Shown piece after piece: positions 5,521-28,685 of a stretch of 31,815 nucleotides of DNA. Below the pieces are notes generated by a model that was given only the letters and a program-made list of their open reading frames with translations, was not told the DNA's origin and did no database searches. A program made the translations under genes and the position numbers. How positions within the stretch are numbered: position 1 is the first letter of the stretch; each line of letters begins with the position of its first letter. This DNA comes from a virus: positions 1 through 31,815 of IMG/VR virus record IMGVR_UViG_3300010299_000034, one strand, 5' to 3'.

Positions 5521-7806
5521 ATGAAGAATTTAGGACAAGATATAATAGAAGAATTACTAACAGAATCTAATATTACAGATGTTGTTGTGATATATCCTGG
5601 CAGGTTCCAGCCTATGGGCAGACACCACGCGGCAGTGTATAAGAAATTAGCATCTAAATATGGTAAGACAAATACATATATCGCTACAAGTGATAAAGTA
5701 GCATTACCTAAATCTCCGTTAAACTTCCAAGAGAAGTTACAAGTTATAAAACGGCATGGGATTACAAACGTAGTACAAGTTAAGAACCCATACCAGTCAA
5801 TTGAAATAACATCTCAGTATGACCCGGAAACGACTGCAGTCTTATTTGCTATAGGCAAAAAGGATATGGAAGAGAATCCTAGATTTCGTACAGGAACGAA
5901 GCGGGATGGTAGTCCTTCATATTTTCAAGATTATGAAAAGAATAAACATAATCTTAAATCATATCAATCCCATGGGTATTTGATAGTAGCTCCTCATGTA
6001 GATATTGATATTCCGGGATTCGGTGAGATGTCCGGAACGACATTGCGTAAGGTATTAGCAACTGCCTCTCCAGAAACCTTCGAAGATGTAATGGGATTCT
6101 ATGACGAGTCTATTTATAATATGCTGCGCGATAAGTTTGCTGATTTAAGAACTGAAATGATTGAGACATTTTTAGTAGAATCTAGTACGGTATCGTTTTT
6201 AGGAAAGGCTGTTGTAGATGACGGTCCTAGATACTTTTATGGTAATCAAAAGACATACCAATCAAATTCAACGAAAATGGCAAACCGCTTAGGATTTGAA
6301 GTTATGAGCTACTTGACAGATGACAAGCCGTTAGAGGTACATAATACAGATTATCCAGATGGCCCGCCAATGACGGTATCATTCTTCCCTACAGGTATAA
6401 AAGGAACTGAGTTCTCAGGTACAGATTATTTGAAAGATGCGCGCGGTTCGAAAGCGTATAATGCATGGATGTCATATATCGATAAAGTGGCACAACAAGT
6501 AGGGTTTGAATTTTTAGACTTCTTAGGTGCTGAAGTGTCAATTGATTCTAGTAAATCAGAAGATATGTCTCCTCAGACCATTCGAGAGGTACGATATAGT
6601 ACTGAATGGTGGAAAGAAATGTTAAATGAGGTTATAGTTGAAGCAGCTGCGAATACCCATTTAACTCATTTAGAAGAGCTTATTCTTACTAAAGGAGCCG
6701 AAGGATATAAACAGGCGCGTTCAGTGCTTTTAGAACTTCTTAAGAACTTACGTGGCCATAGTGATACAAAGGTTAATACAACAGTTAAGTGGGATGGCGC
6801 ACCGGCCATATTTTGCGGTGTTAATCCAGATAATGGTAAGTTTTTTGTAGGAACTAAATCAATCTTTAATAAAGAGCCGAAGATAAACTATACGCCAGAA
6901 GATATTGAAATGAACCATGGCCATGCCCCAGGCTTAGCTGATAAGTTAGTTAAAGCATTACAGTATTTACCTAAATTAGGCATTAAGAATATTTTACAAG
7001 GCGACTTTATGTTTGATAAATCGTCATTACAACAACAATCATTAGATGGCGTAACGCATTATACATTCAGACCTAATACAATTACATATGCGGTAGAGGC
7101 AGATTCTGACCTAGGTAAGCGTATTGCAAAAGCTGACTTTGGAATTGTATTCCATACATCATATGATTCATTAACATCGCCGGCACAATTCGGAGCAGAC
7201 GTATCTAATCTTAAGAAGTCGTCAGATGTCTGGTTTGATGATGCATTCTTTAAAGAATCTAGCGGAACGGTATTACTTACTGCTAAAGAAGCTAAACTAG
7301 TAGCATCGAAAATTAAGGCCGCAGATTCAATACGAATTGACTATGAAAATATTCCGGCGCAGTTACTTAATACATATATCAACTCTGAAATCCGTACGGG
7401 CAATTTTCTCGAGAATCCAAAAGCATCATTTCGAGCTTTCAAAGCTTGGTATCAAGTTAAGGTTGATAAGAAAGTTGATAAGTTAAAGTCTGAACGGGGA
7501 AAGGCGAAAGCAATTGCCGCGGGAGAAGAAGCAAAAGCTAACTTTGATGCGCGCCAGGATGATATTATCAAAATTTTCAAATTGACTAAATTATTGGCTG
7601 AAGCAAAGATGGTATTTGTTAATAAGTATAATAACGCAGTATACAGAACAAAGCATTTTAAAGACGATGGTCAGGGCGGATTGGTAGCAACAGCCCCAGA
7701 AGGCTACGTAGCAATTGATAGAATTGGTAATGGAGTAAAGTTAGTTGACCGCTTAGAGTTTAGTAGAGCGAACTTTGCGATGGATAAAGGATTTGCCAAA
7801 AAGTAA
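5521..7806 (+). CDS. Bifunctional-looking nucleotidyltransferase (NMNAT/cytidylyltransferase-like) fused to a ligase-fold domain
   Basis: A 761-residue multidomain protein. Residues about 20-190 have the nucleotidylyltransferase fold signature: YPGRFQPMGRHH (25-36) and SGTTLR (171-176), as in NMN adenylyltransferases and NadR. The first His of the usual HxGH is Gly33; the last is kept (H36). Residues about 215-380 are an unassigned phage-type region. Residues about 385-761 carry nucleotidyltransferase/ligase-superfamily signatures: KWDGAP (candidate nucleophile K423), FVGTKSIFNK, LQGDFMFD, ITYAVEADS with GIVFHTSYD, and near the C-terminus EGYVAIDR with VKLVDR, similar to motifs IV and V. This C-terminal family occurs in marine T4-like phages (I recall DUF6267). 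The N-terminus (MKNLGQDIIEELLTES) could be a cleavable targeting peptide. Domains are seen; substrates are unknown. RNA or DNA end-joining, or NAD metabolism, are possibilities only. Confidence 0.8.
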   Translation: MKNLGQDIIEELLTESNITDVVVIYPGRFQPMGRHHAAVYKKLASKYGKTNTYIATSDKVALPKSPLNFQEKLQVIKRHGITNVVQVKNPYQSIEITSQYDPETTAVLFAIGKKDMEENPRFRTGTKRDGSPSYFQDYEKNKHNLKSYQSHGYLIVAPHVDIDIPGFGEMSGTTLRKVLATASPETFEDVMGFYDESIYNMLRDKFADLRTEMIETFLVESSTVSFLGKAVVDDGPRYFYGNQKTYQSNSTKMANRLGFEVMSYLTDDKPLEVHNTDYPDGPPMTVSFFPTGIKGTEFSGTDYLKDARGSKAYNAWMSYIDKVAQQVGFEFLDFLGAEVSIDSSKSEDMSPQTIREVRYSTEWWKEMLNEVIVEAAANTHLTHLEELILTKGAEGYKQARSVLLELLKNLRGHSDTKVNTTVKWDGAPAIFCGVNPDNGKFFVGTKSIFNKEPKINYTPEDIEMNHGHAPGLADKLVKALQYLPKLGIKNILQGDFMFDKSSLQQQSLDGVTHYTFRPNTITYAVEADSDLGKRIAKADFGIVFHTSYDSLTSPAQFGADVSNLKKSSDVWFDDAFFKESSGTVLLTAKEAKLVASKIKAADSIRIDYENIPAQLLNTYINSEIRTGNFLENPKASFRAFKAWYQVKVDKKVDKLKSERGKAKAIAAGEEAKANFDARQDDIIKIFKLTKLLAEAKMVFVNKYNNAVYRTKHFKDDGQGGLVATAPEGYVAIDRIGNGVKLVDRLEFSRANFAMDKGFAKK

Positions 7807-10155: not shown

Positions 10156-10591
10156 AACAGTTCCTGCATTAGTAGTTAATTATCTGCCTAGTGATTCTAT
10201 AGACTTACGACCGACTAGAATTATCTTTGATGGTAAGAAACTAGCATGTTTCGATTATGGCCAGGAAGAGTCTATGCTATTCAAGTTAGAGTTTAAGGAT
10301 TATTATAAAGAGAATACGATTGACTTACTAGATGTAATGCGTTCTCAGAACGAACATATCGATACATTGCAGTCTGTAGTTAAGTTACAAGCTCAAAATT
10401 TAGACTTGGTATTTGATGGATATAAAGATTTTAAAGATTATGGAGAGGATGCTCTAGAGTATTCCTTTAAATTGAATAGGCGTATGAAAAGACAGCAACG
10501 GGCGACTGTAATTGGATTACCATTAGCGATTGCGATTGGTTATATCGCCCGAGATCAAATCGATAGCATTCTAACTAATTTGTTTAATTAA
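10025..10591 (+). CDS. Secreted protein with signal peptide and C-terminal hydrophobic helix, possible spanin partner
   Basis: 188 residues. The N-terminus (about 1-29) is a signal peptide: basic RK, hydrophobic ILTTFLLTLMLSV, and a probable cleavage site after TAHG. There is no lipobox cysteine, so it is not a typical outer-membrane spanin lipoprotein. The body contains helical stretches (EHIDTLQSVVKLQAQNLDL). Near the C-terminus is a second hydrophobic segment rich in Gly and Ala (ATVIGLPLAIAIGYIA). It overlaps the preceding coiled-coil gene by 131 bases and its stop overlaps the terminase start. It may be the periplasmic or outer-membrane partner of the spanin candidate. The export signal is seen; the role is inferred. 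Confidence 0.6.
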   Translation: MLVQGRKYCIGILTTFLLTLMLSVTAHGQENQDNENSLSPQDRRTVPALVVNYLPSDSIDLRPTRIIFDGKKLACFDYGQEESMLFKLEFKDYYKENTIDLLDVMRSQNEHIDTLQSVVKLQAQNLDLVFDGYKDFKDYGEDALEYSFKLNRRMKRQQRATVIGLPLAIAIGYIARDQIDSILTNLFN

Positions 10592-12180
10592 TGTCTAAGC
10601 AGAAAAGTATAAAAGAACTTATACGGGAAGAGTATAAACGATGTGCGATGGACCCGGTCCATTTTATGCGCAGGTATTGTATGATCCAGCATCCAATGCG
10701 AGGAAAGATCCCTTTTCATTTATATGAATTTCAAGAAGATACATTATTAAAGTTAAGAGATAATCGTTACAACGTTATCCTTAAGTCTCGACAGATGGGT
10801 ATTTCAACCTTAACGGCTGGCTATGCATTATGGTCGATGATATTCAAAGAAGATTTTAAGGTATTGGTAATTGCAACAACACAAGAAGTTGCGAAGAACC
10901 TAGTTACGAAAGTACGTGTCATGCATGACAATTTACCTTCGTGGTTGCGAAGTAGTAGCATGGAGGATAACAAACTTTCGCTACACTTATCTAACGGGTC
11001 GCAAATCAAAGCAGTATCATCGAAAAGTGATTCAGCTAGATCGGAAGCGTTGTCATTATTAATAATTGATGAAGCAGCGTTCATTGATAGAGTTGATGAT
11101 ATATGGGTTTCGGCGCAACAGACACTAGCGACTGGCGGTTCTGCTATAATGTTATCAACCCCGAATGGTACTGGTAATTTATTCCATAAGACATGGGAGT
11201 CTGCAATAAACGACCCTGCATCCGAATTTAATGCTATCAGATTACACTGGACACTGCATCCAGAACGAGACCAGCCATGGCGAGATAAGCAAGACGAATT
11301 GCTTGGACCTAAAATGGCTGCGCAAGAATGTGATTGTTCATTTATTACATCTGGTCATACTGTAGTGGACGGCCCGGTACTTGAATGGTATAAACAATCG
11401 CATATTAAAGATCCGATTGAAAAGCGTGGAGCTGATGGCAATTATTGGTTATGGGAACATCCTAGTTATACAGCTAATGCTAGCTATGCAGTAGTAGCCG
11501 ATGTGGCCCGAGGCGACTCATCTGACTACTCGGCATTCCATGTTATAGACTTAGAATCTATGCGGCAAGTAGCTGAATATAAAGGACGTTTAGGTACTAC
11601 CGAATTCGGCCATATGCTAGTCAATGTAGCTACAGAATGGAATAATGCCTTACTAGTTATTGAAAATGCTAATATAGGATGGGCTGTTTGTCAAATAGCA
11701 ATTGACCGTAAATATGAAAACTTATATTATTCATATAGAAGTGATGGATATGTAGACGAGGAAATACAGCTGAGTAAGGGATATGACTTGAAAGGTAAGG
11801 ATAAGAAAGTAGTTGGATTCTCAACAAATGCTAGAACACGTCCTCTCATCATATCAAAACTAGAAACATACTTCAGAAAGAAAGTACCAATTATTCACTC
11901 AGAACGTTTACATGGTGAATTGCTTACATTCATCTGGCGTGGTCATAAAGCAGAAGCACAACAAGGATATAATGATGACTTGGTAATGTCATTTGCAATT
12001 GCATTATGGATACGTGATACGGCGATAAGGTTACAACAACAAGGAATCGAGTTATCCAGACGTTCTTTAGGACACTTCGGGAAGGTGCAAGGAGTGTATA
12101 CTAACGCTAAAAAGAAGCAGGATGAGTGGAATTGGAACCCAAATGGCCAGGGAGATGAAGATCTTACCTGGTTAATCTAA
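10591..12180 (+). CDS. Terminase large subunit (T4 gp17-like)
   Basis: A 529-residue DNA-packaging motor ATPase and headful nuclease. The ATPase domain shows the usual LYEFQ region, a Walker A-like SRQMGIST (66-73), a Walker B LLIIDEAAF (D160, E161), and coupling motif STPNGTGN (189-196). The RNase H-like nuclease domain shows D304 (VADVARGDSSDYS), E358 (LLVIENANIG) and NDDLV (D462, D463). Length and motif order fit complete T4-type terminases. The ATG overlaps the previous stop. It follows the lysis genes and precedes the portal to which the motor docks. No small terminase subunit is recognisable in this window. Confidence 0.97.
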   Translation: MSKQKSIKELIREEYKRCAMDPVHFMRRYCMIQHPMRGKIPFHLYEFQEDTLLKLRDNRYNVILKSRQMGISTLTAGYALWSMIFKEDFKVLVIATTQEVAKNLVTKVRVMHDNLPSWLRSSSMEDNKLSLHLSNGSQIKAVSSKSDSARSEALSLLIIDEAAFIDRVDDIWVSAQQTLATGGSAIMLSTPNGTGNLFHKTWESAINDPASEFNAIRLHWTLHPERDQPWRDKQDELLGPKMAAQECDCSFITSGHTVVDGPVLEWYKQSHIKDPIEKRGADGNYWLWEHPSYTANASYAVVADVARGDSSDYSAFHVIDLESMRQVAEYKGRLGTTEFGHMLVNVATEWNNALLVIENANIGWAVCQIAIDRKYENLYYSYRSDGYVDEEIQLSKGYDLKGKDKKVVGFSTNARTRPLIISKLETYFRKKVPIIHSERLHGELLTFIWRGHKAEAQQGYNDDLVMSFAIALWIRDTAIRLQQQGIELSRRSLGHFGKVQGVYTNAKKKQDEWNWNPNGQGDEDLTWLI

Positions 12181-12203: not shown

Positions 12204-14069
12204 ATGGTAGATACATCATTACGGGCTAGGCTTTCACGTCTATTTTCTACAAATGTAATAGTACGTAGGATTGCAAAGAATAGACTTAAAGTGGTTGATA
12301 CAAACCGACTGCAGTCTAGCGGTAACTTATCAAACAGAAACCATGTAGATAGGTTTAACGGTGTTCATAGAGGAATGCCTGGCTATAATACATATGGACA
12401 AAATCAATCATTCCATACTGCAAAGATCCAGTTATTCCGTGACTATGAAGCAATGGATGCTGATCCTATTATTAGTTCAGCGTTAGATATCTACGCAGAT
12501 GAATCTACAGTTAAAGACAATGACGGGGATACACTTACAATTCGATCACACGATGAAAGGATTGTAAAGGTTCTACGTAATCTATTTAATGACATTTTAA
12601 ATATCGATTTCAATCTATGGCCCTGGATCCGTAATGCTTGTAAGTATGGAGATTTTTATCTACATTTAGATATTGAAGAAGATATTGGGATTATAAATGT
12701 AGTGCCGATATCTCCATATGAGATACGTAGAGAAGAAGGATATGAATTAGAAAATCCTTATGCTCATAGATTTGTATTAGAAGGCACTCATTCAGCTGGA
12801 TCATTTATTGCGAGTAGGGGAGAGCAGAAGATATTCGAACCATTTGAAATTGCCCACTTCCGATTATTGTCGGATACTAACTTCTTGCCATATGGTAAGT
12901 CAATGATAGAGCCAGCTCGTAAGATATTTAAACAGTTATCTCTTATGGAAGATGCTATGCTTATTCATAGGATAATGAGAGCACCGGAGCGTAGGATCTT
13001 CAAGATTGATATAGGAAACATTCCGCCTAATGAAGTAGATCAGCATATGCAGAACATCATTAATGGAATGAAGAAAGTTCCGTATATTGATGAGACTACA
13101 GGAGATTATAATCTTAAGTTCAACATACAAAATAGTATTGAAGATTACTTCATGCCAGTTAGAGGCGGAGAAAGCGGCACAGAAATTGATACATTGCCCG
13201 GACTATCCTCAGACGGACAGATTGATGATATCGATTATCTTAAGAATAAACAATTTAGCGCATTAAAGATACCAAAAGCTTTCTTAGGTTACGATGAAGG
13301 CGTAGAAGGTAAAGGTACTTTAGCACAAGAAGATATTAGATTTGCGCGTACAATTGAACGTATTCAGAAGATATTCGTTTCAGAACTTACTAAAATTGCT
13401 GTAATTCATTTATATGCTCAAGGGTTTACTGATGAAGATTTGATTAATTTCGACTTATCTCTAACTAACCCTTCATTGATATATGAAAAACAGAAAGTAG
13501 AAACTCTAAGCGAAAAGGTAACATTAGCCCAGAATCTTAAAGAATCTAGAATGTTCTCTGATCAATGGATATACGAAAACATATACGGATTGACTCGAGT
13601 CGAATGGCAGACAATGCAAGCTCAAGTTATTAATGACTTGAAAGAGGACTTCAGAAAGGATCAAATTGCATCAGAAGGTAATGACCCGACTAAGACTCAT
13701 CAGAGCTTTGGTACTCCTCATGATATCGCAGCAATGTATGTTAATAAGTCAGATATGCCAGAATTACATCCAGAAGTTGTTCCAGGCCCAGGAAGACCAA
13801 AAGGCAACGTTACTGGCCGGTCTCATAAGTCGCCATTCGGTCGCGATCCTCTAGCCGGAAAAGAGTTAGCTACATCATTGCAACAAAATTCTAGTCCATT
13901 AGATACTCGTAAGAAGAAATCCGGACCGTTTTCTATGGAGAATGCAGAGATATCTGCGTTGGTAGCTTCCATGAAGTCTAAAGATGTAATACGTAAGACT
14001 TTGATCAAGGAAGAGGTCGATAAAGACAACGGTACATTGTTGGATGAGAAGAACCTTTTAGAAGAGTAA
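12204..14069 (+). CDS. Portal vertex protein (T4 gp20-like)
   Basis: A 621-residue protein forming the ring at one capsid vertex through which DNA enters and to which terminase and neck bind. It matches the gp20 pattern: FRDYEAMDADPIISSALDIYADES near residue 90, PWIRNACKYGDFYLHLDI, a basic segment RIMRAPERRIFKID, LPGLSSDGQIDDIDYLKNKQF, and IPKAFLGYDEGVEGKGTLAQEDIRFARTIERIQ. The last 100 residues are polar and low-complexity (PGPGRPKGNVTGRSHK), probably flexible. Length is slightly above T4 gp20. It lies between the terminase and head-assembly genes, with its own upstream ATATTTATT element. Confidence 0.96.
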   Translation: MVDTSLRARLSRLFSTNVIVRRIAKNRLKVVDTNRLQSSGNLSNRNHVDRFNGVHRGMPGYNTYGQNQSFHTAKIQLFRDYEAMDADPIISSALDIYADESTVKDNDGDTLTIRSHDERIVKVLRNLFNDILNIDFNLWPWIRNACKYGDFYLHLDIEEDIGIINVVPISPYEIRREEGYELENPYAHRFVLEGTHSAGSFIASRGEQKIFEPFEIAHFRLLSDTNFLPYGKSMIEPARKIFKQLSLMEDAMLIHRIMRAPERRIFKIDIGNIPPNEVDQHMQNIINGMKKVPYIDETTGDYNLKFNIQNSIEDYFMPVRGGESGTEIDTLPGLSSDGQIDDIDYLKNKQFSALKIPKAFLGYDEGVEGKGTLAQEDIRFARTIERIQKIFVSELTKIAVIHLYAQGFTDEDLINFDLSLTNPSLIYEKQKVETLSEKVTLAQNLKESRMFSDQWIYENIYGLTRVEWQTMQAQVINDLKEDFRKDQIASEGNDPTKTHQSFGTPHDIAAMYVNKSDMPELHPEVVPGPGRPKGNVTGRSHKSPFGRDPLAGKELATSLQQNSSPLDTRKKKSGPFSMENAEISALVASMKSKDVIRKTLIKEEVDKDNGTLLDEKNLLEE

Positions 14070-16167: not shown

Positions 16168-16776
16168 ATGGAAAAGCGATTATTAGTTGACTATACAGTA
16201 TTTGAAGTAACGCCTCAACAAATTAATGAGTCTTTGGCTAAGAACAATGGACGATTAATTGTAAGGGGAGTACTACAACGTGCGGAGTCTAAAAACCAAA
16301 ACGGTCGTGTATATCCAAAAGAAATATTAATGCGTGAAGCAACTAAATATACTCAAAATTTTGTTGCAGAGCGTAGAGCGATGGGAGAACTAGACCATCC
16401 AGATTCATCAGTTGTGAATCTTAATAACGTTTCTCATAATGTAATTGAGATGCAGTGGAAGGGTAATGACCTAGTTGGAGCAGTAGAAGTATTAGGAACA
16501 CCATCAGGTAATATCTTGAAAGAACTTTTCCAGTCCGGAATTAGATTAGGTATTTCTTCAAGAGGGATGGGTTCAGTAAAAGAAATTGTAAATGAAGATG
16601 GCAGCAATGCACTACAAGTGCAGCCAGACTTTGAATTAATTGCGTTTGATTTTGTATCAAACCCGTCGACTCATGGAGCATTTTTATCTCCAGTGAATGA
16701 AGGGAAGACGCATCAAGAATTAAATAAATTTGAATCGATTGAAAGATTGATTACTGATATAATAACGGAGTTCTAA
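16168..16776 (+). CDS. Prohead core protease (T4 gp21-like, peptidase S77)
   Basis: A 202-residue serine protease that matures the prohead by cutting scaffold, capsid and core proteins. It shows the family pattern: LIVRGVLQRAESKNQNGRVY near residues 30-49, GELDHP (catalytic His H77), and LGISSRGMGS (catalytic Ser S130 or S131), then FELIAFDFVSNPSTHGA. Length is close to T4 gp21. It follows two small core-type genes and precedes the scaffold and capsid genes across a block of unknown genes. Its stop overlaps the next start (TAATG). Confidence 0.95.
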   Translation: MEKRLLVDYTVFEVTPQQINESLAKNNGRLIVRGVLQRAESKNQNGRVYPKEILMREATKYTQNFVAERRAMGELDHPDSSVVNLNNVSHNVIEMQWKGNDLVGAVEVLGTPSGNILKELFQSGIRLGISSRGMGSVKEIVNEDGSNALQVQPDFELIAFDFVSNPSTHGAFLSPVNEGKTHQELNKFESIERLITDIITEF

Positions 16777-17790: not shown

Positions 17791-18126
17791 ATGGGCAAGA
17801 GTAAACAACATTTAGCAGAAACATATGCACGTTTATTCAAAGGTAGACCTGCAAGCAATGATCATAAACTGCTTCGTGAAGCTGTAAAATATGATGTGGA
17901 AGCAGCTGTTAAAACGATCCAAAATTTTAATAGAGGTACGGCAAGTCACTTACCAAATGAAACATATCTGGCTAAACAAATTCTAAGAGATCTGGGATAT
18001 AGAGTAACGATTAAAAATGTTAACACTGTGCTAGATCACCTAATGGCCTCATCAGACGGCGAAGAAATTCCAGCGGATATGACAATGGTTAGAGAATTGA
18101 TACCAATGTTAGAATCAGTATCATAA
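17791..18126 (+). CDS. Small helical protein inside the repeat-bounded segment
   Basis: 111 residues, helical and soluble, beginning MGKSKQHLAETYARLFKG and ending with PADMTMVRELIPMLESVS. No recognised domain. The start is supported by AGAGGGAAAAA immediately upstream. The entire gene lies between the two copies of direct repeat A, so it appears to have been gained together with the C-terminal part of the preceding gene. The function is unknown; it could be phage cargo or a virion component. Confidence 0.72.
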   Translation: MGKSKQHLAETYARLFKGRPASNDHKLLREAVKYDVEAAVKTIQNFNRGTASHLPNETYLAKQILRDLGYRVTIKNVNTVLDHLMASSDGEEIPADMTMVRELIPMLESVS

Positions 18127-18165
18127 CGTGACTATAATATTAATGAGTCATTGAAAGATAGCGAA
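18127..18165 (+). repeat. Direct repeat A, copy 2: leftover 3' end of the upstream gene
   Basis: Reads RDYNINESLKDSE followed directly by TGA (18166-18168), matching residues 126-138 of the 242-residue protein. No start codon precedes it, so it is a remnant. Its GAATGA also provides the ATG of the bS21-like gene. Confidence 0.85.
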
Positions 18166-18419
18166 TGAACAAAAAAACTAAAAAAACAAGTTATATGAAT
18201 TTACGAGCAAGAAAGACTGTCGGGCCTTCCGGAGGGGTACGAGTTGTTGGAGGAGATATCCGAAATGCACTTCGAACGTTTAAACAAGAATTAAAGAATA
18301 AGGGAGTTATTCAAGACTTAAAGGATAGGAGAGAGTTCAAATCAAAGTCTGAAATTAAACGGGAACAACGTCAACGGGCAGAGTATAGACAAAAGTTTAT
18401 ATCCGAGAATGAAATGTAA
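18165..18419 (+). CDS. Phage homologue of ribosomal protein bS21
   Basis: 84 residues. Residues about 25-78 align with bS21: VRVVGGDIRNALRTFKQ, then KGVIQDLKDRREFKSKSE, KREQRQRAEYRQKF. The core features AL-x-x-FK, GV-x-x-(L)-x-x-RR-x-F and the basic helix are kept. The first 20 residues are an extra basic tail. bS21 sits on the 30S platform near the mRNA exit and the anti-Shine-Dalgarno end of 16S rRNA. Phage-encoded bS21 is known from marine phages and may alter initiation on captured ribosomes. Tyr74 lies where Bacteroidetes bS21 has a conserved C-terminal Tyr, by my unaided alignment. The gene starts within the remnant of repeat A and ends at a terminator. Its lack of a strong SD is notable. 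Confidence 0.75.
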   Translation: MNKKTKKTSYMNLRARKTVGPSGGVRVVGGDIRNALRTFKQELKNKGVIQDLKDRREFKSKSEIKREQRQRAEYRQKFISENEM

Positions 18420-18422
18420 ATT

Positions 18423-18443
18423 AGCGCCGAAAGGCGCTTTTTT
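18423..18443 (+). terminator. Rho-independent terminator after the bS21-like gene
   Basis: Perfect six-base stem AGCGCC/GGCGCT with a GAAA tetraloop, running into six T (18438-18443). It begins four bases after the stop codon and separates the preceding head genes from the scaffold and capsid unit. Confidence 0.92.
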
Positions 18444-18598: not shown

Positions 18599-19483
18599 AT
18601 GAAAAATTCTGATTTACTTAAAGAGGCAATCGCAGATGCTAAAGCAGTACGAGAAACTGCAATTGCCAACGCAAAACTTGCGCTAGAAGAGTCATTCGTT
18701 CCAAAGATCCAATCCATGCTATCTAACCGCATTGCTGAAGAGGAAGGCGGAGAAGAAATGGAAGAACCTGTGGAGGAGCCAGTAATGGACGAAATGCCAC
18801 CAGAGGAAGAAGAGGTATCAATGGAAGAAGGTGATGACTACGAAGAAAAATCTATCGAAGAGATGGATGATGAAGATGAGCTAGAACTTGAAGCGATTAT
18901 TCGTGAGCTGGAAAGCGAAGAAGAAGAGCCGATGGAAGAAGGTGATTATTCGGAAGAAGAAGAGCCGATGGAAGAAGGTGATTATTCGGAAGAAGAAGAG
19001 ATGATGGAAGAGGGTGATGACTATGAAGAGGATATGGATGATGACATCAGTATTGATGAAATCATTAAGTCTCTAACTGAAGAAGATTACGAAGAAGAAG
19101 AGGCTGAAGTAGATGATACGGCAGCTGAACTAGAAGAGGCTATGAACGTGATTCGCTTCTTGAAGTCAAAGCTTAACGAAGTGAACCTTCTAAACGCAAA
19201 ACTACTTTTCTCAAACAAACTATTCAAGAACCATGCATTATCTGAAACACAGAAAATGAAAGTAATAGAAAACTTCGATAGAGCTGAGACTCTACGTGAA
19301 GTGAAGTTAGTCTTTGCTACATTATCTGAATCATTCATTGGTGCAGGCGAAAGAGTAAAAAGAACCGTTAGCGAAGGATACGGGTCAAGAACAAGTCAAT
19401 CAACAGCTCCTAAGAAAGAAATTCTTTCAGAAGGAAATGCATTGGCGGCTCGTTGGAAGAAGCTAGCAAATATTAAAGGATAA
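18599..19483 (+). CDS. Prohead core scaffold protein (T4 gp22-like)
   Basis: 294 residues, extremely acidic in the middle (about 45-185: EEEPMEEGDYS repeats) and helical at both ends (LLKEAIADAKAVRETAIANAK; LNEVNLLNAKLLFSNKLFKN). Position just before the capsid gene, acidic coiled-coil character and helical ends match gp22-type scaffolds of T4-like phages, which fill the prohead and are then cut up by the prohead protease. The C-terminal segment (LSETQKMKVIENFDRAETLREVK) resembles this family. The acidic part contains a 36-base tandem repeat. The start has AGGACA upstream. It shares a transcription unit with the capsid gene, three bases away. Confidence 0.88.
   Translation: MKNSDLLKEAIADAKAVRETAIANAKLALEESFVPKIQSMLSNRIAEEEGGEEMEEPVEEPVMDEMPPEEEEVSMEEGDDYEEKSIEEMDDEDELELEAIIRELESEEEEPMEEGDYSEEEEPMEEGDYSEEEEMMEEGDDYEEDMDDDISIDEIIKSLTEEDYEEEEAEVDDTAAELEEAMNVIRFLKSKLNEVNLLNAKLLFSNKLFKNHALSETQKMKVIENFDRAETLREVKLVFATLSESFIGAGERVKRTVSEGYGSRTSQSTAPKKEILSEGNALAARWKKLANIKG
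18917..19024 (+). repeat. 36-base tandem repeat in the scaffold gene
   Basis: Copies at 18917-18952 and 18953-18988 are identical; a third, diverged copy follows from 18989. Each encodes 12 residues, EEEEPMEEGDYS. Such perfect copies imply recent unit duplication and likely length variation among relatives. Confidence 0.9.
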
Positions 19484-19486
19484 ACA

Positions 19487-21184
19487 ATGAACATAAATTC
19501 ATTACTACCTCATGAACATGCAGCAACTCAAAAAGAAGTGGCTATTCAGCTTGAAAACAAGTGGAAAGGGTCAGGTCTTCTAGAGGGGTTGGATAGCGAG
19601 ATCGATAGACGTTCAATGGCCGTTCTTTTGGAAAACCAGGCTCGTCAACTTGTAACTGAAGCATCAGCTACAGGAGCGCAGTCTAATGCAGAAGAATGGG
19701 CAGGCGTTGCTCTACCACTGGTACGTAGAATCTTTGCTGAAATTGCAGCTAAAGATTTCGTTTCTGTTCAGCCGATGAACCTACCTTCAGGTCTAGTATT
19801 CTACTTAGACTTCAAGTATGGAACAGGTGTTGGTCAGATTGATAGCGTAGCAGGAGGTAACGACTTCTTGACAGGCCAAGGACGTACAGCTGAGTCTGAC
19901 TCTGTATTCGGTATCACTGATGCAGCAGCAGGTACTCCAGCAACAGAAGGTCTTTACGGACCTGGTCGTTTCGGATATACCGTTAACGAAACAGTGACAG
20001 CTCTATTATCAGCTGGTACAGGTGTAACCGATGCTCGTACGGGATCTATTAACCCGACGACAGGACTATTTACTGCAGCAACATCAATGGATGATGCAGC
20101 GTTCCAAGCATTCACGAACTACAATTCTGAATTCTCTGCTTCAGCAGCAGCTGTTGGAAACGTATTCCATGTAGTATCTATTCCATCCGCTTCACTTACA
20201 AATTATGATATTAACGGTGTTAGATCGTTTAACCTATCAGGATCTGGAGCAGGATTTAATGTGTTCCCAGAATTTACAAGAACAACCGAAAATGGTTCTC
20301 ATGTAGAATTCTTGGTACACTCTATCGCTGGTACACCTTCATTTAAAGTTGCGTATGCTAAGCAGCCAACTGATATCACTCGTGGTGATTATGAAGATAC
20401 TGTAGGTGATGCAACTACTAACTCACTTTCGATTCCAGAGATCAACCTTGAGATGAGATCTGAACCGATCGTTGCTAAGACTAGAAAGCTTAAGGCTATT
20501 TGGTCTCCTGAATTTGCTCAGGACTTGAATGCTTATCACTCAATTGATGCTGAAGCAGAATTGACAAGCATGCTTTCTGAATATGTTTCGCAAGAAATTG
20601 ATTTGGAAATCTTAGACATGCTTATCCAGAATGCACAGACAACTGATAAGTGGTCAGCACGTGTTGGATATGAGTTTAATGCTGCAACGAACACGTTCAG
20701 TGCCGGCGCAACAGCAGCTCAAGCATACAACCAAGGAACATGGTTCCAGACTCTTGGAACTAAGATCCAAAAGGTAAGTAACAAGATTCACCAATTGACT
20801 CTAAGAGGTGGAGCTAACTTCCTTGTATGTTCTCCAACAGTGGCAACAATCCTAGAATCTATTCCTGGATATGCTGCAGACACTGACGGTGATAAGATGC
20901 AGTTCGCAATGGGTGTTCAGAAAGTTGGATCTATCAACAGTAGGTTCCAAGTGTATAAGAACCCTTACATGACTGAGAACGTTATTTTGATGGGATACCG
21001 TGGATCTCAGTTCCTAGAAACAGGAGCTGTTTATTCTCCATATATTCCGTTGATCATGACTCCTCTATTGCATGACCCAGAAGACTTCACTCCACGTAAA
21101 GGTGTGATGACTCGTTATGCTAAGAAGATCACTCGTCCTGAGTTCTATGGTAAGGTCTTTGTCCACGGACTAGAGACTATATAA
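19487..21184 (+). CDS. Major capsid protein (T4 gp23-like)
   Basis: 565 residues building the head lattice. Typical gp23 features: ALPLVRRIFAEIAAKDFVSVQPM and PSGLVFYLDFKYG near residues 75-110, PEINLEMRSEPIVAKTRKLKAIWSPEFAQDL in the centre, and PLIMTPLLHDPEDFTPRKGVMTRYAKKITRPEFYGKVFVHGL at the end. The N-terminal 58 residues are helical and end in RQLVTE-A, a plausible site for the prohead protease, whose known preference is a hydrophobic residue two before Glu. Maturation would therefore remove about 58 residues. The gene is three bases from the scaffold gene and is followed by a strong terminator. Confidence 0.97.
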   Translation: MNINSLLPHEHAATQKEVAIQLENKWKGSGLLEGLDSEIDRRSMAVLLENQARQLVTEASATGAQSNAEEWAGVALPLVRRIFAEIAAKDFVSVQPMNLPSGLVFYLDFKYGTGVGQIDSVAGGNDFLTGQGRTAESDSVFGITDAAAGTPATEGLYGPGRFGYTVNETVTALLSAGTGVTDARTGSINPTTGLFTAATSMDDAAFQAFTNYNSEFSASAAAVGNVFHVVSIPSASLTNYDINGVRSFNLSGSGAGFNVFPEFTRTTENGSHVEFLVHSIAGTPSFKVAYAKQPTDITRGDYEDTVGDATTNSLSIPEINLEMRSEPIVAKTRKLKAIWSPEFAQDLNAYHSIDAEAELTSMLSEYVSQEIDLEILDMLIQNAQTTDKWSARVGYEFNAATNTFSAGATAAQAYNQGTWFQTLGTKIQKVSNKIHQLTLRGGANFLVCSPTVATILESIPGYAADTDGDKMQFAMGVQKVGSINSRFQVYKNPYMTENVILMGYRGSQFLETGAVYSPYIPLIMTPLLHDPEDFTPRKGVMTRYAKKITRPEFYGKVFVHGLETI

Positions 21185-21264: not shown

Positions 21265-21286
21265 ATAAATCATTTATTTGACGTGT

Positions 21287-21949
21287 ATGGCGAAGGCAGA
21301 GAATAAGGCGAAGACGCCTCCAAAAGGCAATGTTCGATTTTCAATCATATTATCAGAAGAACAGAAATTAGCTAAGGCTGAAATATTAAAACATCCGTAT
21401 AATTTTATTTTGGGTGCAGCAGGAACTGGTAAAACATTATTAGCAGTTCAGATTGCCCTTGATATGTTCTTTAAAAGACAATACAACAAAATTGTAATTA
21501 CAAGACCAACTGTTTCTACAGAAGATAACGGATTCTTACCCGGCGATGCAAATGAAAAGATGGAGCCATGGCTAGTTCCGATCAGATCGAATATGCGCAA
21601 GGTATACAACAAACAAGAGAAGTTGACTCAGTTAGAAACATCAGATGAAATTGAATTAGTATCGTTAGCTCATTTTAGAGGACGTACATTTGATGATTCA
21701 ATTGTAATAGTAGATGAATGTCAGAACTTAACCAGATCGCAGTTGGCCATGGCCATCGGTCGACTTGGTAAGAATTCAAAAATGATGTTTTGTGGTGATT
21801 CAAAACAAATTGATTTGCGAGATAAAAACCACTCGGCTATACACGATGTATCTAAGCTATTAGTATCAAATAGCGTTTATAGATGTAATCTTACAGACTC
21901 ACATAGACACGAAGCAGTGAATGAATTATTAGATCTGCTATATGCTTGA
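21287..21949 (+). CDS. phoH: PhoH-like P-loop ATPase
   Basis: 220 residues from the ATG at 21287; a TTG three codons upstream is a weaker start. Walker A is GAAGTGKT (43-50), Walker B IVIVDECQN (D143, E144), followed by GDSKQIDLRDK (a sensor-like motif) and SHRHEAV near the end. Also present is ITRPTVSTEDNGFLPGDANEKMEPW, a hallmark of PhoH. PhoH is a cytoplasmic ATPase common in marine phages; its real activity is disputed (RNA helicase or phosphate-stress related). Its place here, between capsid and neck genes in the late region, is unusual for T4 order. It has its own ATATTTATA element. Confidence 0.93.
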   Translation: MAKAENKAKTPPKGNVRFSIILSEEQKLAKAEILKHPYNFILGAAGTGKTLLAVQIALDMFFKRQYNKIVITRPTVSTEDNGFLPGDANEKMEPWLVPIRSNMRKVYNKQEKLTQLETSDEIELVSLAHFRGRTFDDSIVIVDECQNLTRSQLAMAIGRLGKNSKMMFCGDSKQIDLRDKNHSAIHDVSKLLVSNSVYRCNLTDSHRHEAVNELLDLLYA

Positions 21950-24525: not shown

Positions 24526-24927
24526 ATGCCAGCCGGACTATATTCGTTTGTTATAGAACAAGGAGCTACTTTAGATTTAGAAGTGGCTTACAAAGATTCT
24601 GGTTCTAATGCTATTGATTTAACAGGCTATCAAGCTCGGATGCAATTACGTCCTAATGTTGGTAGTTCTACTGTATTGTTAACACTTTCATCGAGTTTAA
24701 CATCAGATGGTACTGGATTGAACATGAGCGGGAGTTCCGGAACCAATTCTCCAACATTGGGGACAATTGGAATTTATATATCCGCGGCATCTTCATCGCA
24801 GTTAGATTTTGGAGAGGCGGTATACGATTTAGAAATAGCGTCTGGCGATGCAGTGCCGACAGTTTATAGAATATTAGAAGGAAAGATTCGGTTATCTAAG
24901 AATGTAACCTTAGGACCAACTTACTAA
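24526..24927 (+). CDS. Small beta-rich tail-associated protein
   Basis: 133 residues. The pattern FVIEQGATLDLEVAYKD, AIDLTGYQARMQLRPN, then a Gly/Ser-rich region and a final beta segment VYRILEGKIRLSK is common to small phage proteins encoded next to tail fibres, often in other phage groups too. I cannot assign a specific role; fibre attachment or a fibre-base domain is likely from context. The stop overlaps the start of the fibre gene (TAATG). The start has a good AAAAGGA spacing. Confidence 0.75.
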   Translation: MPAGLYSFVIEQGATLDLEVAYKDSGSNAIDLTGYQARMQLRPNVGSSTVLLTLSSSLTSDGTGLNMSGSSGTNSPTLGTIGIYISAASSSQLDFGEAVYDLEIASGDAVPTVYRILEGKIRLSKNVTLGPTY

Positions 24928-27900
24928 TGGCATCTAGAAACTGTAATACAAGAATTATCGATGTTAATCGCGATAAGAATACAGTTATCATTAATAATGT
25001 ACAACGACAAGTACTTGTAACTGATAACCGATGTGACCGTACTGTTAATACAGTTCAGCAACTTACTAATATTGTCCATGTAAAAATACCAGGCCCTCAA
25101 GGCCAAGCAGGGTTGCAAGGACCATCCGGATCACAAGGACCATCTGGATCGCAAGGACCATCTGGATCGCAAGGCCCGATCGGACCATCTGGATCGCAAG
25201 GGCCGGCAGGACCAGTACAGCCAACAGGCTCGTTTATGGTCACTGGGTCAGTTGCTTCAAACATATTAACATTCACTAAAGGTGATGGTAGCACATTCCA
25301 ATTAACAGTCGCAACTGGATCTGGAGGAGGCTCTGGCCCATCGACTGATACATTACAAGATGTTACAAGTAGAGGTAATCAGACATCAGCTTCCATTATA
25401 ATTACCGGATCATTAATAACAGGACAGTTTAATACATTAAGTGGTATTGGTTCGAGAGCACATGGCTTCTTTACAAATGCTAGCGGGTCATATTCCCATG
25501 CCGAAGGAGGATTTACACAAGCTATCGGCCAATATTCGCATGCAGAAGGCGTAGGATCATTCGGTTTTGAAAACAAATCAGTAGGCATAGGGTCTCATGC
25601 AGAAGGAAGCCAGACACAAGCCATAGGAGACCATTCACATGCAGAAGGCGCTACTACAATAGCCAGGGGCGTAGGATCGCATGCACAAGGCCAACAGACT
25701 GTAGCCCACGGGGGCTATTCATTCGCCCAAGGCGTTGGCACAATAGCATCCGGATCCCACCAGGCAGTCTTTGGCACATATAATGTAGCAAATGATAGCT
25801 CGTTATTTATAATAGGTAACGGTATTGACCAATTTTCTAGAAGTAATGTATTAGTCATTGATAGCGATCGTATTACAGTTTCAGGTAGTCTAAAATTAGA
25901 TCCATCTGAAGACCCAGATCCATCAGGTACTGATTTAGATTCAACTGCATTATTTCAAAGTGCATCTAATACATCTTTAGGGTATGATTTATATATCCGC
26001 CAAAATGGAAATCTAATAAAATGGAAATGGGTTGAAGGAGTAGTAAACACAGGATTGTTATTTGGTGGGGTAGTTACTTATTCAGGTAGTACAGTTTTTG
26101 TGTCATCTGGTAGTGGTATAATAGTTGATCACAATGCTACAACTAATCAGGAAATATCACCTATAATAACCTATGTTAATTGGTCTAATATTAGTCAGAG
26201 TGTTTCAAACATATCCACTCAGCAGGTAACTTACTTATATATCGATCAAAATGGTGATTTACAACAACAATCAAGCAGATTTACAAATGACCAATATCAC
26301 GATTATATTCCGTTAGGATCTGTAGGTCATTTTGATTATACCCAAGTATCAGCATTTGGAGGTCAAGTTCAAACTGCCTATGGCCAAATATCTCAAATTT
26401 CAACATTTGTTGATGTATTTGGACCTTTGAAAATATCAGGATATGGAATTACTGGTCAGGCAGGTAGTTTGAGATTATCAGTTGGATCAGGTCAATCTTT
26501 TATACATGGAGGGTTTTATGAAAATGACCCTGAGTTACCTTCAACTATAACAACAAATGCCCAAGCAACCGCCAGTATAGCCTATGTTTATAGATCAGGT
26601 TCTGGAGCTGCATTTGATACAAATGGAGGGAATTTATACACCTCACTTAGGCCTGGGTTTTATGATCCAGGAACTGGAGTAACTGGCTCAGTTTCAAACA
26701 ATGACTGGACAATTCAAAGAGCATACTCAGATCCTAAAACAGGAGTACTATATATTTATTATGGTCAAACTATCTATCCTGACTATAATACTGCTTTAGC
26801 GGATCTTTCCTCAGATTCATTCACAGAAGGGGATACATTTGATTTTACTACTTTTGTTGGATTTCTCGTCCTAAAGAGTAATACAACAGATATAACAAAT
26901 ACAGGCGATAATAAAATAATTCCTGCTGGATTATTTAGAGGATCTGGTCAAGGTGGGGGAGGTGGTTCTGCTGTAAGTAATTTAGATGATTTAAGTGATG
27001 TCTCAATTACAGGACCTACAGATGGAGAAGCATTAGTTTATAATTCAGGAGTCTGGATAAACGGAACCCCAGCTTCATCAAGTTATGCTTTATCAAGTTC
27101 ATATAGTTTAAGTAGTTCATATTCGTTATCTTCAAGTTATTCAACAACTGCATCGTATGCACTAAATGTCATTCCAACAAATACAAGTTCATTATTAACA
27201 ACAGCATCTATATCATCAAATGTTATTACATTTACTAAAGGTGATGGATCAACATTTGGAGTAACTGTTGATACTGGATCAACGCCGACTTTGAACCAAG
27301 TAGTAGAAGCCGGTAATATTGCAAATTCCAAAGTAATAATATCTGCATCACTACTAGTAGGAAGAGATACATTGGTATCTACAGACTTTGGATTTGCTCA
27401 AGGGCGTGATACGTTAATTGAAGGAAAGTATGGCCATGCCGAAGGTTCGTCATCTGCAGTTTATGCAACAGCCGGACACGCAGAAGGATTCGGTACCTCC
27501 GTACAGAACAATTACGGTCATGCTGAGGGATGGGGTTCATTAGCGACTGGCCAGGCAGCTCATGCCGAAGGATTCGGAACGCGCGCCTCTGGGTTATATT
27601 CACACACTGAAGGGTCTAGTACTAGAGCATCCGGACAAGCAGCTCACGCTGAGGGCCAGTCGGCTATAGCTTCTGGAATAGGGTCGCATTCGGAAGGAGA
27701 AGAAACTGTCGCTAGCGGAACAGGATCACATGCAGAAGGAGGTCAGTCACAAGCAATTGGAGATTATTCGCATGCGGAAGGCAAAAGCACTAAAGCGAAT
27801 GGTTTAGGATCACATGCTGAAGGCCAGGGAACGGTAGCCGATGGAGATTATTCACACGCTGAAGGTCAGGGAACAGTAGCCTCTGGATCACATCAACATG

Positions 27901-28685
27901 TACACGGACAGTATAATACTCATGGCAATACTACGGCGCTAGTAATTATTGGTAATGGTACTAGTGACGGTGCTCGAAGCGATTTAGCCGTATATAATCA
28001 GAACTCGATATTATATAATGCTTCCGTTACAGCTTCAAGTGATATAAGCGCATCCGGAGATATTTCATTACGTGGATTCCCGAGCCTATCTAGTTCATTG
28101 TTAGAATACATGACTACAGCTTCGGTAAGTAGTAATGTGATTACATTTACTAAAGGTGATGGAGCAACATTCGATCTTACAGTCGCAACAGGATCGGGTG
28201 GACCAACTGGGTCTACTGGCCCTAGTGAATTTTTTATACAAGATCAGGGTAGTGGTATAAATACTATCAGCGAAACTAGCCAAAGAGTTCGTAGCCCATT
28301 CACTGGGGGTGAGAATGCAGAAGCATGGAATACCAATTTCCCTACTCTTGAATATCAGAGGACAGGTCATATCGTACCTTACAACTCTACTTTGACGGGA
28401 ATCAGGATGCATACAAGAGGATATGATTCAGGGACATATACGATAACTCTTAGAGTATACAGAAAAAATTTCACTGACAATGCGGCAGGTACAAGTGATA
28501 ACATACAAACACACACGGGTGTCTTTGTTAATGGTACAGGAAAACTCAGGGAATTTCTCAATTTAACATATAGTGATGCATTCAACGCCGGAGATGAAGT
28601 ATATGTAACTTGGCAAGCTGATGCGGGTTATAATGCAAAAAGATTTATATTAATAGGAATTACCTATTATTTTGAAAGAACATAA
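24927..28685 (+). CDS. Large modular tail fibre with collagen-like and YadA-like head repeats
   Basis: 1252 residues. In order: a beta N-terminal attachment region (1-55); a collagen-like Gly-x-y run (about 56-95, many GPSGSQ); a linker LTFTKGDGSTF (about 115); a first block of YadA-head-type repeats with SHAEG units (about 170-290), ending in an IGNG segment; a large unrelated central domain (about 320-700); a hexapeptide SSSYSL run; a second TFTKGDGSTF linker (about 768); a second SHAEG block (about 824-1010) ending again in IGNG; a third TFTKGDGATF linker (about 1073); a short GPTGSTGPS; and a C-terminal domain (1095-1252: PTLEYQRTGHIVPYNSTLTGIRM) likely to be the receptor-binding tip. Trimeric fibre is inferred. 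The central part has different base composition. Downstream, the gene abuts a broken small frame. Confidence 0.88.
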   Translation: MASRNCNTRIIDVNRDKNTVIINNVQRQVLVTDNRCDRTVNTVQQLTNIVHVKIPGPQGQAGLQGPSGSQGPSGSQGPSGSQGPIGPSGSQGPAGPVQPTGSFMVTGSVASNILTFTKGDGSTFQLTVATGSGGGSGPSTDTLQDVTSRGNQTSASIIITGSLITGQFNTLSGIGSRAHGFFTNASGSYSHAEGGFTQAIGQYSHAEGVGSFGFENKSVGIGSHAEGSQTQAIGDHSHAEGATTIARGVGSHAQGQQTVAHGGYSFAQGVGTIASGSHQAVFGTYNVANDSSLFIIGNGIDQFSRSNVLVIDSDRITVSGSLKLDPSEDPDPSGTDLDSTALFQSASNTSLGYDLYIRQNGNLIKWKWVEGVVNTGLLFGGVVTYSGSTVFVSSGSGIIVDHNATTNQEISPIITYVNWSNISQSVSNISTQQVTYLYIDQNGDLQQQSSRFTNDQYHDYIPLGSVGHFDYTQVSAFGGQVQTAYGQISQISTFVDVFGPLKISGYGITGQAGSLRLSVGSGQSFIHGGFYENDPELPSTITTNAQATASIAYVYRSGSGAAFDTNGGNLYTSLRPGFYDPGTGVTGSVSNNDWTIQRAYSDPKTGVLYIYYGQTIYPDYNTALADLSSDSFTEGDTFDFTTFVGFLVLKSNTTDITNTGDNKIIPAGLFRGSGQGGGGGSAVSNLDDLSDVSITGPTDGEALVYNSGVWINGTPASSSYALSSSYSLSSSYSLSSSYSTTASYALNVIPTNTSSLLTTASISSNVITFTKGDGSTFGVTVDTGSTPTLNQVVEAGNIANSKVIISASLLVGRDTLVSTDFGFAQGRDTLIEGKYGHAEGSSSAVYATAGHAEGFGTSVQNNYGHAEGWGSLATGQAAHAEGFGTRASGLYSHTEGSSTRASGQAAHAEGQSAIASGIGSHSEGEETVASGTGSHAEGGQSQAIGDYSHAEGKSTKANGLGSHAEGQGTVADGDYSHAEGQGTVASGSHQHVHGQYNTHGNTTALVIIGNGTSDGARSDLAVYNQNSILYNASVTASSDISASGDISLRGFPSLSSSLLEYMTTASVSSNVITFTKGDGATFDLTVATGSGGPTGSTGPSEFFIQDQGSGINTISETSQRVRSPFTGGENAEAWNTNFPTLEYQRTGHIVPYNSTLTGIRMHTRGYDSGTYTITLRVYRKNFTDNAAGTSDNIQTHTGVFVNGTGKLREFLNLTYSDAFNAGDEVYVTWQADAGYNAKRFILIGITYYFERT
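25119..25199 (+). repeat. 18-base tandem repeat coding collagen-like GPSGSQ
   Basis: Four units at 25119-25136, 25137-25154, 25155-25172 and 25182-25199, with a nine-base GPI spacer (25173-25181). Units two to four are identical; the first differs at two bases. Confidence 0.92.
27075..27164 (+). repeat. Ser/Tyr hexapeptide repeat in the fibre gene
   Basis: Five 18-base units encode SSSYAL, SSSYSL, SSSYSL, SSSYST and TASYAL. They are diverged at the DNA level but regular in protein, a linker type seen in phage fibres. Confidence 0.85.

Follow-up and report, generated by a model that had tools for sequence, protein, structure and literature searches.

The window analysed here is the whole stretch of 31,815 nucleotides of the record IMGVR_UViG_3300010299_000034, a 31.8 kb fragment of a T4-like myovirus whose gp20, gp21 and gp23 belong to an Immutovirus-related lineage. 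Its capsid and portal proteins share 56% and 47% identity, respectively, with those of Flavobacterium phage immuto, and 57% and 52% with those of the Microcystis phage Mel-JY01. The gene under study, which encodes a homologue of the ribosomal protein bS21, lies in a head cassette with the order terminase, portal, prohead protease, bS21, acidic protein at the scaffold position, gp23 capsid and PhoH. Its earlier placement in the late head region is borne out by the terminase, portal, prohead protease and gp23-type capsid genes starting at 10591, 12204, 16168 and 19487. The features are as follows (SD, Shine-Dalgarno sequence):

10591..12180, + strand, terminase large subunit, without SD (Pfam/PHROG)
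12204..14069, + strand, portal (gp20), without SD (PF07230, 4.2e-78)
16168..16776, + strand, prohead protease (Peptidase_S77), SD AAAGGA (Pfam/PHROG)
17791..18126, + strand, hypothetical gene, 111 aa, 38 nt upstream of bS21; no significant match of its product in Pfam and PHROG
18165..18419, + strand, bS21 open reading frame, 84 aa (PF01165, TIGR00030 and PDB matches, AF2 model)
18190..18194, + strand, GTTAT leader before the probable bS21 start, conserved among the relatives compared
18195..18419, + strand, likelier extent of the bS21 gene, starting at Met11, 74 aa (homologue starts, GTTAT)
18384..18386, + strand, codon of Tyr74, opposite Tyr54 of F. johnsoniae bS21 (7jil_z alignment)
18423..18438, + strand, stem of a predicted intrinsic terminator directly downstream of bS21, with a T run behind it
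18599..19483, + strand, acidic protein, putatively the scaffold by its position only, SD AGGA
19475..19480, + strand, SD of the capsid gene, AAAGGA
19487..21184, + strand, major capsid protein, gp23 (PF07068, 3.1e-77)
21278..21949, + strand, PhoH-like protein (PF02562, 8.6e-53)

The 84-aa open reading frame was confirmed, and sequence comparison firmly identifies its product as a true bS21 homologue. It matches the Pfam profile PF01165 with 37.7 bits (E 1.6e-9; Pfam cut-off 27), residues 25-76 being aligned to profile positions 2-54 of 55, and the NCBIfam profile TIGR00030 with 36.1 bits (cut-off 28.95). Hence, the bS21 homology that had been claimed from the letters is backed by two profile matches well over their curated cut-offs. 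The PHROG match was PHROG 21469 'ribosomal protein S21', and a sequence search of the PDB returned S21 chains exclusively. Residues 29-77 align without gaps to residues 9-57 of F. johnsoniae bS21 (7jil_z), and Tyr74 indeed falls on residue 54, the C-terminal Tyr match to Bacteroidetes bS21 that had been suspected. The AF2 model (pLDDT 77.5, pTM 0.43) predicts helices at residues 32-46, 48-56 and 61-83; with Foldseek this model best matched chains of mitochondrial small subunits, in several cases S21, at a weak E of 0.05. In a tblastn search for direct bS21 relatives in GenBank phages only two matches were obtained (E=2), because the protein diverges fast.

The earlier note had assigned 84 residues to the protein. 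An open reading frame of this length is present, but translation more likely begins at 18195: the homologues start at the second in-frame ATG (Met11 of the window protein) with a conserved GTTAT before it, therefore the protein probably has 74 aa. GTTAT stands directly 5' of the ATG in 24 of 41 bS21 genes of the aromatic type, i.e. with an aromatic residue at position 54, vs 29 of 1154 other genes. No SD was found before either candidate start (18165, 18195). Among 76 distinct cases the bS21 gene has an SD of its own in six and lacks it in 70, with 0/41 in the aromatic class. We also observed the motif TTATATT(A) 10-75 nt 5' of the bS21 start (L007, L044, L089 etc.), in 28/41 aromatic-type vs 2/35 other cases; it is likely a promoter element.

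SDs were scored as AGGA, GGAG or GAGG at positions -20 to -4 of the start. In the window, such motifs precede 15 of 31 called starts vs 10% of the internal ATGs, in agreement with the AAAGGA-like sites reported before on the late genes, and their strength is moderate (about -4 to -9 kcal/mol). The same score gave 50% for T4 and 6% for immuto, which infects Flavobacterium and lacks bS21.

More than 200 related loci were obtained from IMG/VR by searching with capsid and protease, and 18 from a GTDB scan; an HMM built up from members of the phage family served to look for bS21 in them. All 24 aligned phage bS21 members match PF01165, and this profile was found in 12/12 long records assigned as bS21-carrying and in 0/11 assigned as bS21-lacking, when sought anywhere in the record. 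In the first set, restricted to loci in which the protease-capsid interval is covered, with Mel-JY01 entered twice (once unlabelled) and T4 as outgroup, SDs were found at 29-82% of the genes in 57 loci with bS21 vs 0-16% in 15 without, i.e. without overlap. In the wider set, the median SD share of head-region genes was 50% vs 11%, and among 125 non-redundant relatives an SD share of at least 25% was reached by 52/53 loci with bS21 vs 8/72 without. On the capsid tree the bS21 label changes five times, at least four of these changes being forced by well-supported branches. Hence, bS21 presence and SD use go closely together in this phage family, a correlative finding based on about five independent gains or losses. 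The main counter-example is L272 (G021), which has bS21 (PF01165, 55 bits) yet SDs at only 1/18 genes.

The coupling was also seen independently of gene calling, with starts placed by homology only. An SD precedes the capsid gene in 48/52 loci with bS21 vs 7/72 without (P 6e-22); all seven exceptions without bS21 belong to one clade (L289, L290, L297-L299, L308 and L312), and elsewhere the count is 0/65. This clade is sister to the bS21-carrying L168/L172, and no bS21 was detected in those of its long records that were examined. Similar differences were found for PhoH (22/30 vs 0/49), neck (12/21 vs 0/44) and protease genes (32/50 vs 8/66). SDs are rare in both groups at portal (3/27 vs 0/44) and terminase genes (1/12 vs 0/8), therefore they mark the high-copy products. 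The motif is situated 9-16 nt before the ATG, the same canonical spacing as in T4. In immuto and the bS21-lacking genomes G025-G028, SD-like motifs occur at 2-5% of starts vs 10-20% of internal ATGs, as if SDs were avoided at starts there.

When eight long bS21-carrying records, Mel-JY01 and the window were pooled, SDs were found at 90/164 (55%) structural vs 18/111 (16%) replication genes (OR 6.3, P 6e-11; within-genome Mantel-Haenszel OR 5.6); the window has no replication gene start, and the split rests on its relatives. The relatives without bS21 have SDs at 11/79 structural and 2/55 replication genes. No such split exists in phages of SD-using hosts, where the structural and replication shares are 60/45% in T4, 50/67% in HTVC008M and 40/42% in S-PM2. 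G013 and G020, both of the Tyr type, show the early/late split only weakly, and in Mel-JY01 SDs also occur at 10/19 genes behind host-type promoters, therefore SDs are not strictly late there.

Part of this picture has been described before. As described by Chen et al. (2022; PMC9723584), huge phages that infect freshwater Bacteroidetes encode a bS21 with an aromatic residue 54 in a head-gene cassette beside terminase, portal, protease and capsid, as in the window; it is transcribed together with late genes, and a late hijack of host ribosomes and translation was proposed. In those phages, bS21 is encoded opposite to the structural genes in genomes of 293-331 kb, whereas in the window, itself a 31.8 kb fragment with long relatives on contigs of about 157-181 kb, it shares their strand as part of an operon. 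The basic idea of a translational role of phage bS21 was also published by Al-Shayeb et al. (2020). No SD link was found in the accessible part of Chen et al. (2022), and no earlier report of a bS21/SD coupling was found in the limited open-access literature covered, supplements excluded. Hence, a phage bS21 in the head cassette with its Tyr and a proposed late role is already known, while the link to late-gene SDs appears to be new.

Other known systems share single traits with the window. RpsU of Mel-JY01 (PP395634, WWT39311) is of the same family, its gene also lies between protease and capsid, and late genes bear SDs; however, its residue 54 is of the Lys/Arg type, and its recorded host is cyanobacterial while its promoters are Bacteroidia-like. 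Pelagibacter phage HTVC008M is T4-like with a bS21 that enters E. coli 70S ribosomes (Mizuno et al., 2019; PMC6375957), but there bS21 adjoins replication-type genes and SDs are genome-wide. In ribosomes of F. johnsoniae, bS21, bS18 and bS6 hold the anti-SD, and a strong-SD mRNA was translated 3-5 fold more in vitro when bS21 was truncated or carried Y54A (McNutt et al., 2023; PMC9976891). In this autoregulation, as proposed here, the bS21 composition decides on the use of SD mRNAs; however, it is a cellular system in which the host rpsU has an extended SD, whereas the phage bS21 gene has none. Some Bacteroidia rpsU SDs are very strong according to the same study, and for L345-L347 we obtained values of about -17 to -19 kcal/mol. 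In Francisella an alternative bS21 paralogue selects mRNA subsets (Trautmann and Ramsey, 2022; PMC9578407), but this system is cellular, with neither a phage nor an SD switch.

The window phage may have a Bacteroidota host. Its close relative immuto, without bS21 and SDs, infects Flavobacterium, and among the sampled cellular bS21s an aromatic residue 54 occurs only in a subset of Bacteroidota; elsewhere in this sample the residue is K/R in cyanobacteria, R/K in proteobacteria and R in the remaining Bacteroidota. The motif TTG-N18-20-TAnnTTTG, which we take to be the Bacteroidia promoter consensus, occurs in 18 upstream regions of Mel-JY01 (L431-L433; 0.23 expected), most with a spacing of exactly 20, and in ten of G025, which lacks bS21 and SDs. 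Thus, these two phages with the same host-type promoter differ in bS21 and SDs together. Mel-JY01 was recorded from Microcystis, but with such promoters it may in truth infect a Bacteroidota bacterium that accompanies the cyanobacterium in culture. Across the contigs searched, the Bacteroidia-type promoter is strong only in Mel-JY01 and G025 and lacking in most; this absence is uninformative on the host because immuto, with its Flavobacterium host, lacks the promoter too. The MAG assignments of the 18 GTDB loci are suggestive, several being Bacteroidota and the rest mixed. tRNA genes were found neither in the window nor, apart from a few, in the other contigs. As a side observation, locus L324 (G011), from a Prochlorococcus single-cell genome, encodes two bS21s, the usual cyanobacterial one and a phage-like one whose residue 54 is Tyr.

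Taken as a correlation, the coupling suggests that the virus re-tunes host ribosomes toward its late messages. We consider it slightly more likely than not that phage bS21, joining the host 30S subunits at a late stage of infection, promotes initiation on SD-bearing mRNAs. For the window protein incorporation into ribosomes would be expected by analogy, and 30S subunits carrying it would presumably expose the anti-SD or make it better accessible. In a fuller version, to which we give rather less than even credence, a phage in an SD-ignoring host would make bS21 from an SD-less gene, and bS21 exchange would then create SD-reading 30S subunits that favour SD-tagged capsid and tail mRNAs, i.e. 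a switch in ribosome composition between early and late infection. The missing SD of the bS21 gene would allow unmodified ribosomes to make bS21 first. In this reading the phage has placed SDs on high-copy late genes for capsid, protease, neck and tail proteins and kept them off the low-copy portal and terminase genes; in the relatives, replication genes stay SD-poor. In Bacteroidia, whose ribosomes normally ignore SDs, this would amount to a translational early-to-late switch.

The earlier note had suggested that a phage bS21 might change the use of such sites by 30S subunits; the coupling fits this idea, but the Tyr as its cause is not supported. Tyr54 could be ruled out as the switch, since SD use is equal in phages with aromatic and non-aromatic bS21s. 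The first candidate for loosening the 16S tail would rather be the N-terminal helix, which diverges at the positions listed by Chen et al. (2022). Several points speak against a late switch, namely the Tyr kept at position 54, L272, and the bS21-lacking clade with capsid SDs. Moreover, the phage SDs are only moderate, whereas F. johnsoniae ribosomes without bS21 reportedly depend on an extended SD.

The most serious competing explanation, although we regard it as rather unlikely, is host confounding, i.e. phages with bS21 infect SD-using bacteria and those without it SD-blind Bacteroidota, with no causal tie between the two traits. The groups are separated by no more than about five changes of the bS21 label on the capsid tree, HTVC008M and G023 combine bS21 with genome-wide SDs, hosts can be named for a minority of contigs only, and the MAG assignments are mixed. 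However, an SD-using host would not explain why SDs mark structural and not replication genes in the bS21-carrying family, unlike in T4, S-PM2 and HTVC008M. The Bacteroidia-type promoters, found both in Mel-JY01 with bS21 and SDs and in G025 with neither, also argue against it, as does the aromatic residue 54 of the window clade, which among the sampled cellular bS21s is confined to a Bacteroidota subset.

The model of Chen et al. (2022) and Al-Shayeb et al. (2020) would imply that phage bS21 picks phage mRNAs via its altered N-terminal half and non-SD features of the leaders, with the anti-SD covered by Tyr54. The Tyr retained in the window bS21 agrees with this, since the anti-SD should then stay covered according to the Y54A result of McNutt et al. 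(2023); so do its N-terminal extension and the residues Gln41, Leu43, Asn45 and Val48 at helix positions 21, 23, 25 and 28, found divergent by Chen et al. (2022). Nevertheless, this model explains neither the link between bS21 and capsid SDs nor the equal coupling with non-aromatic bS21s, and we find it improbable. Even smaller is the chance that phage bS21 merely replenishes a labile ribosomal protein and the SDs, unrelated to it, reflect late-gene strength. It is true that bS21 is exchangeable and that a phage bS21 can enter ribosomes (Mizuno et al., 2019), but in the relatives without bS21 the late genes, although equally strong, lack an SD (capsid 0/65, one clade excepted).

A causal role of phage bS21 in SD use, if true, would clearly exemplify specialised ribosomes made by a virus. 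The coupling offers a concrete and falsifiable answer to the question of what phage ribosomal proteins are for, namely that through bS21 the phage gains the use of SDs on its late genes for high-copy products, and matched phages with and without bS21 are now named. It also bears on the puzzle that Bacteroidota keep an anti-SD that is rarely used.

Some further features of the window should be mentioned. The sequence ATATTTATT is present in nine copies, all on the + strand (1.7 expected over both strands), eight of which (2988, 5506, 7813, 12180, 14097, 21955, 24502 and 29047) lie about 15-45 nt before start codons, which makes it a candidate late promoter. The product of 24927-28685 is very long, contains collagen-like GPSGSQ repeats as well as recurring SHAEG motifs and is probably a tail fibre, and 5521-7806 encodes a DUF6267 protein with a cytidylyltransferase-like N-terminal part.
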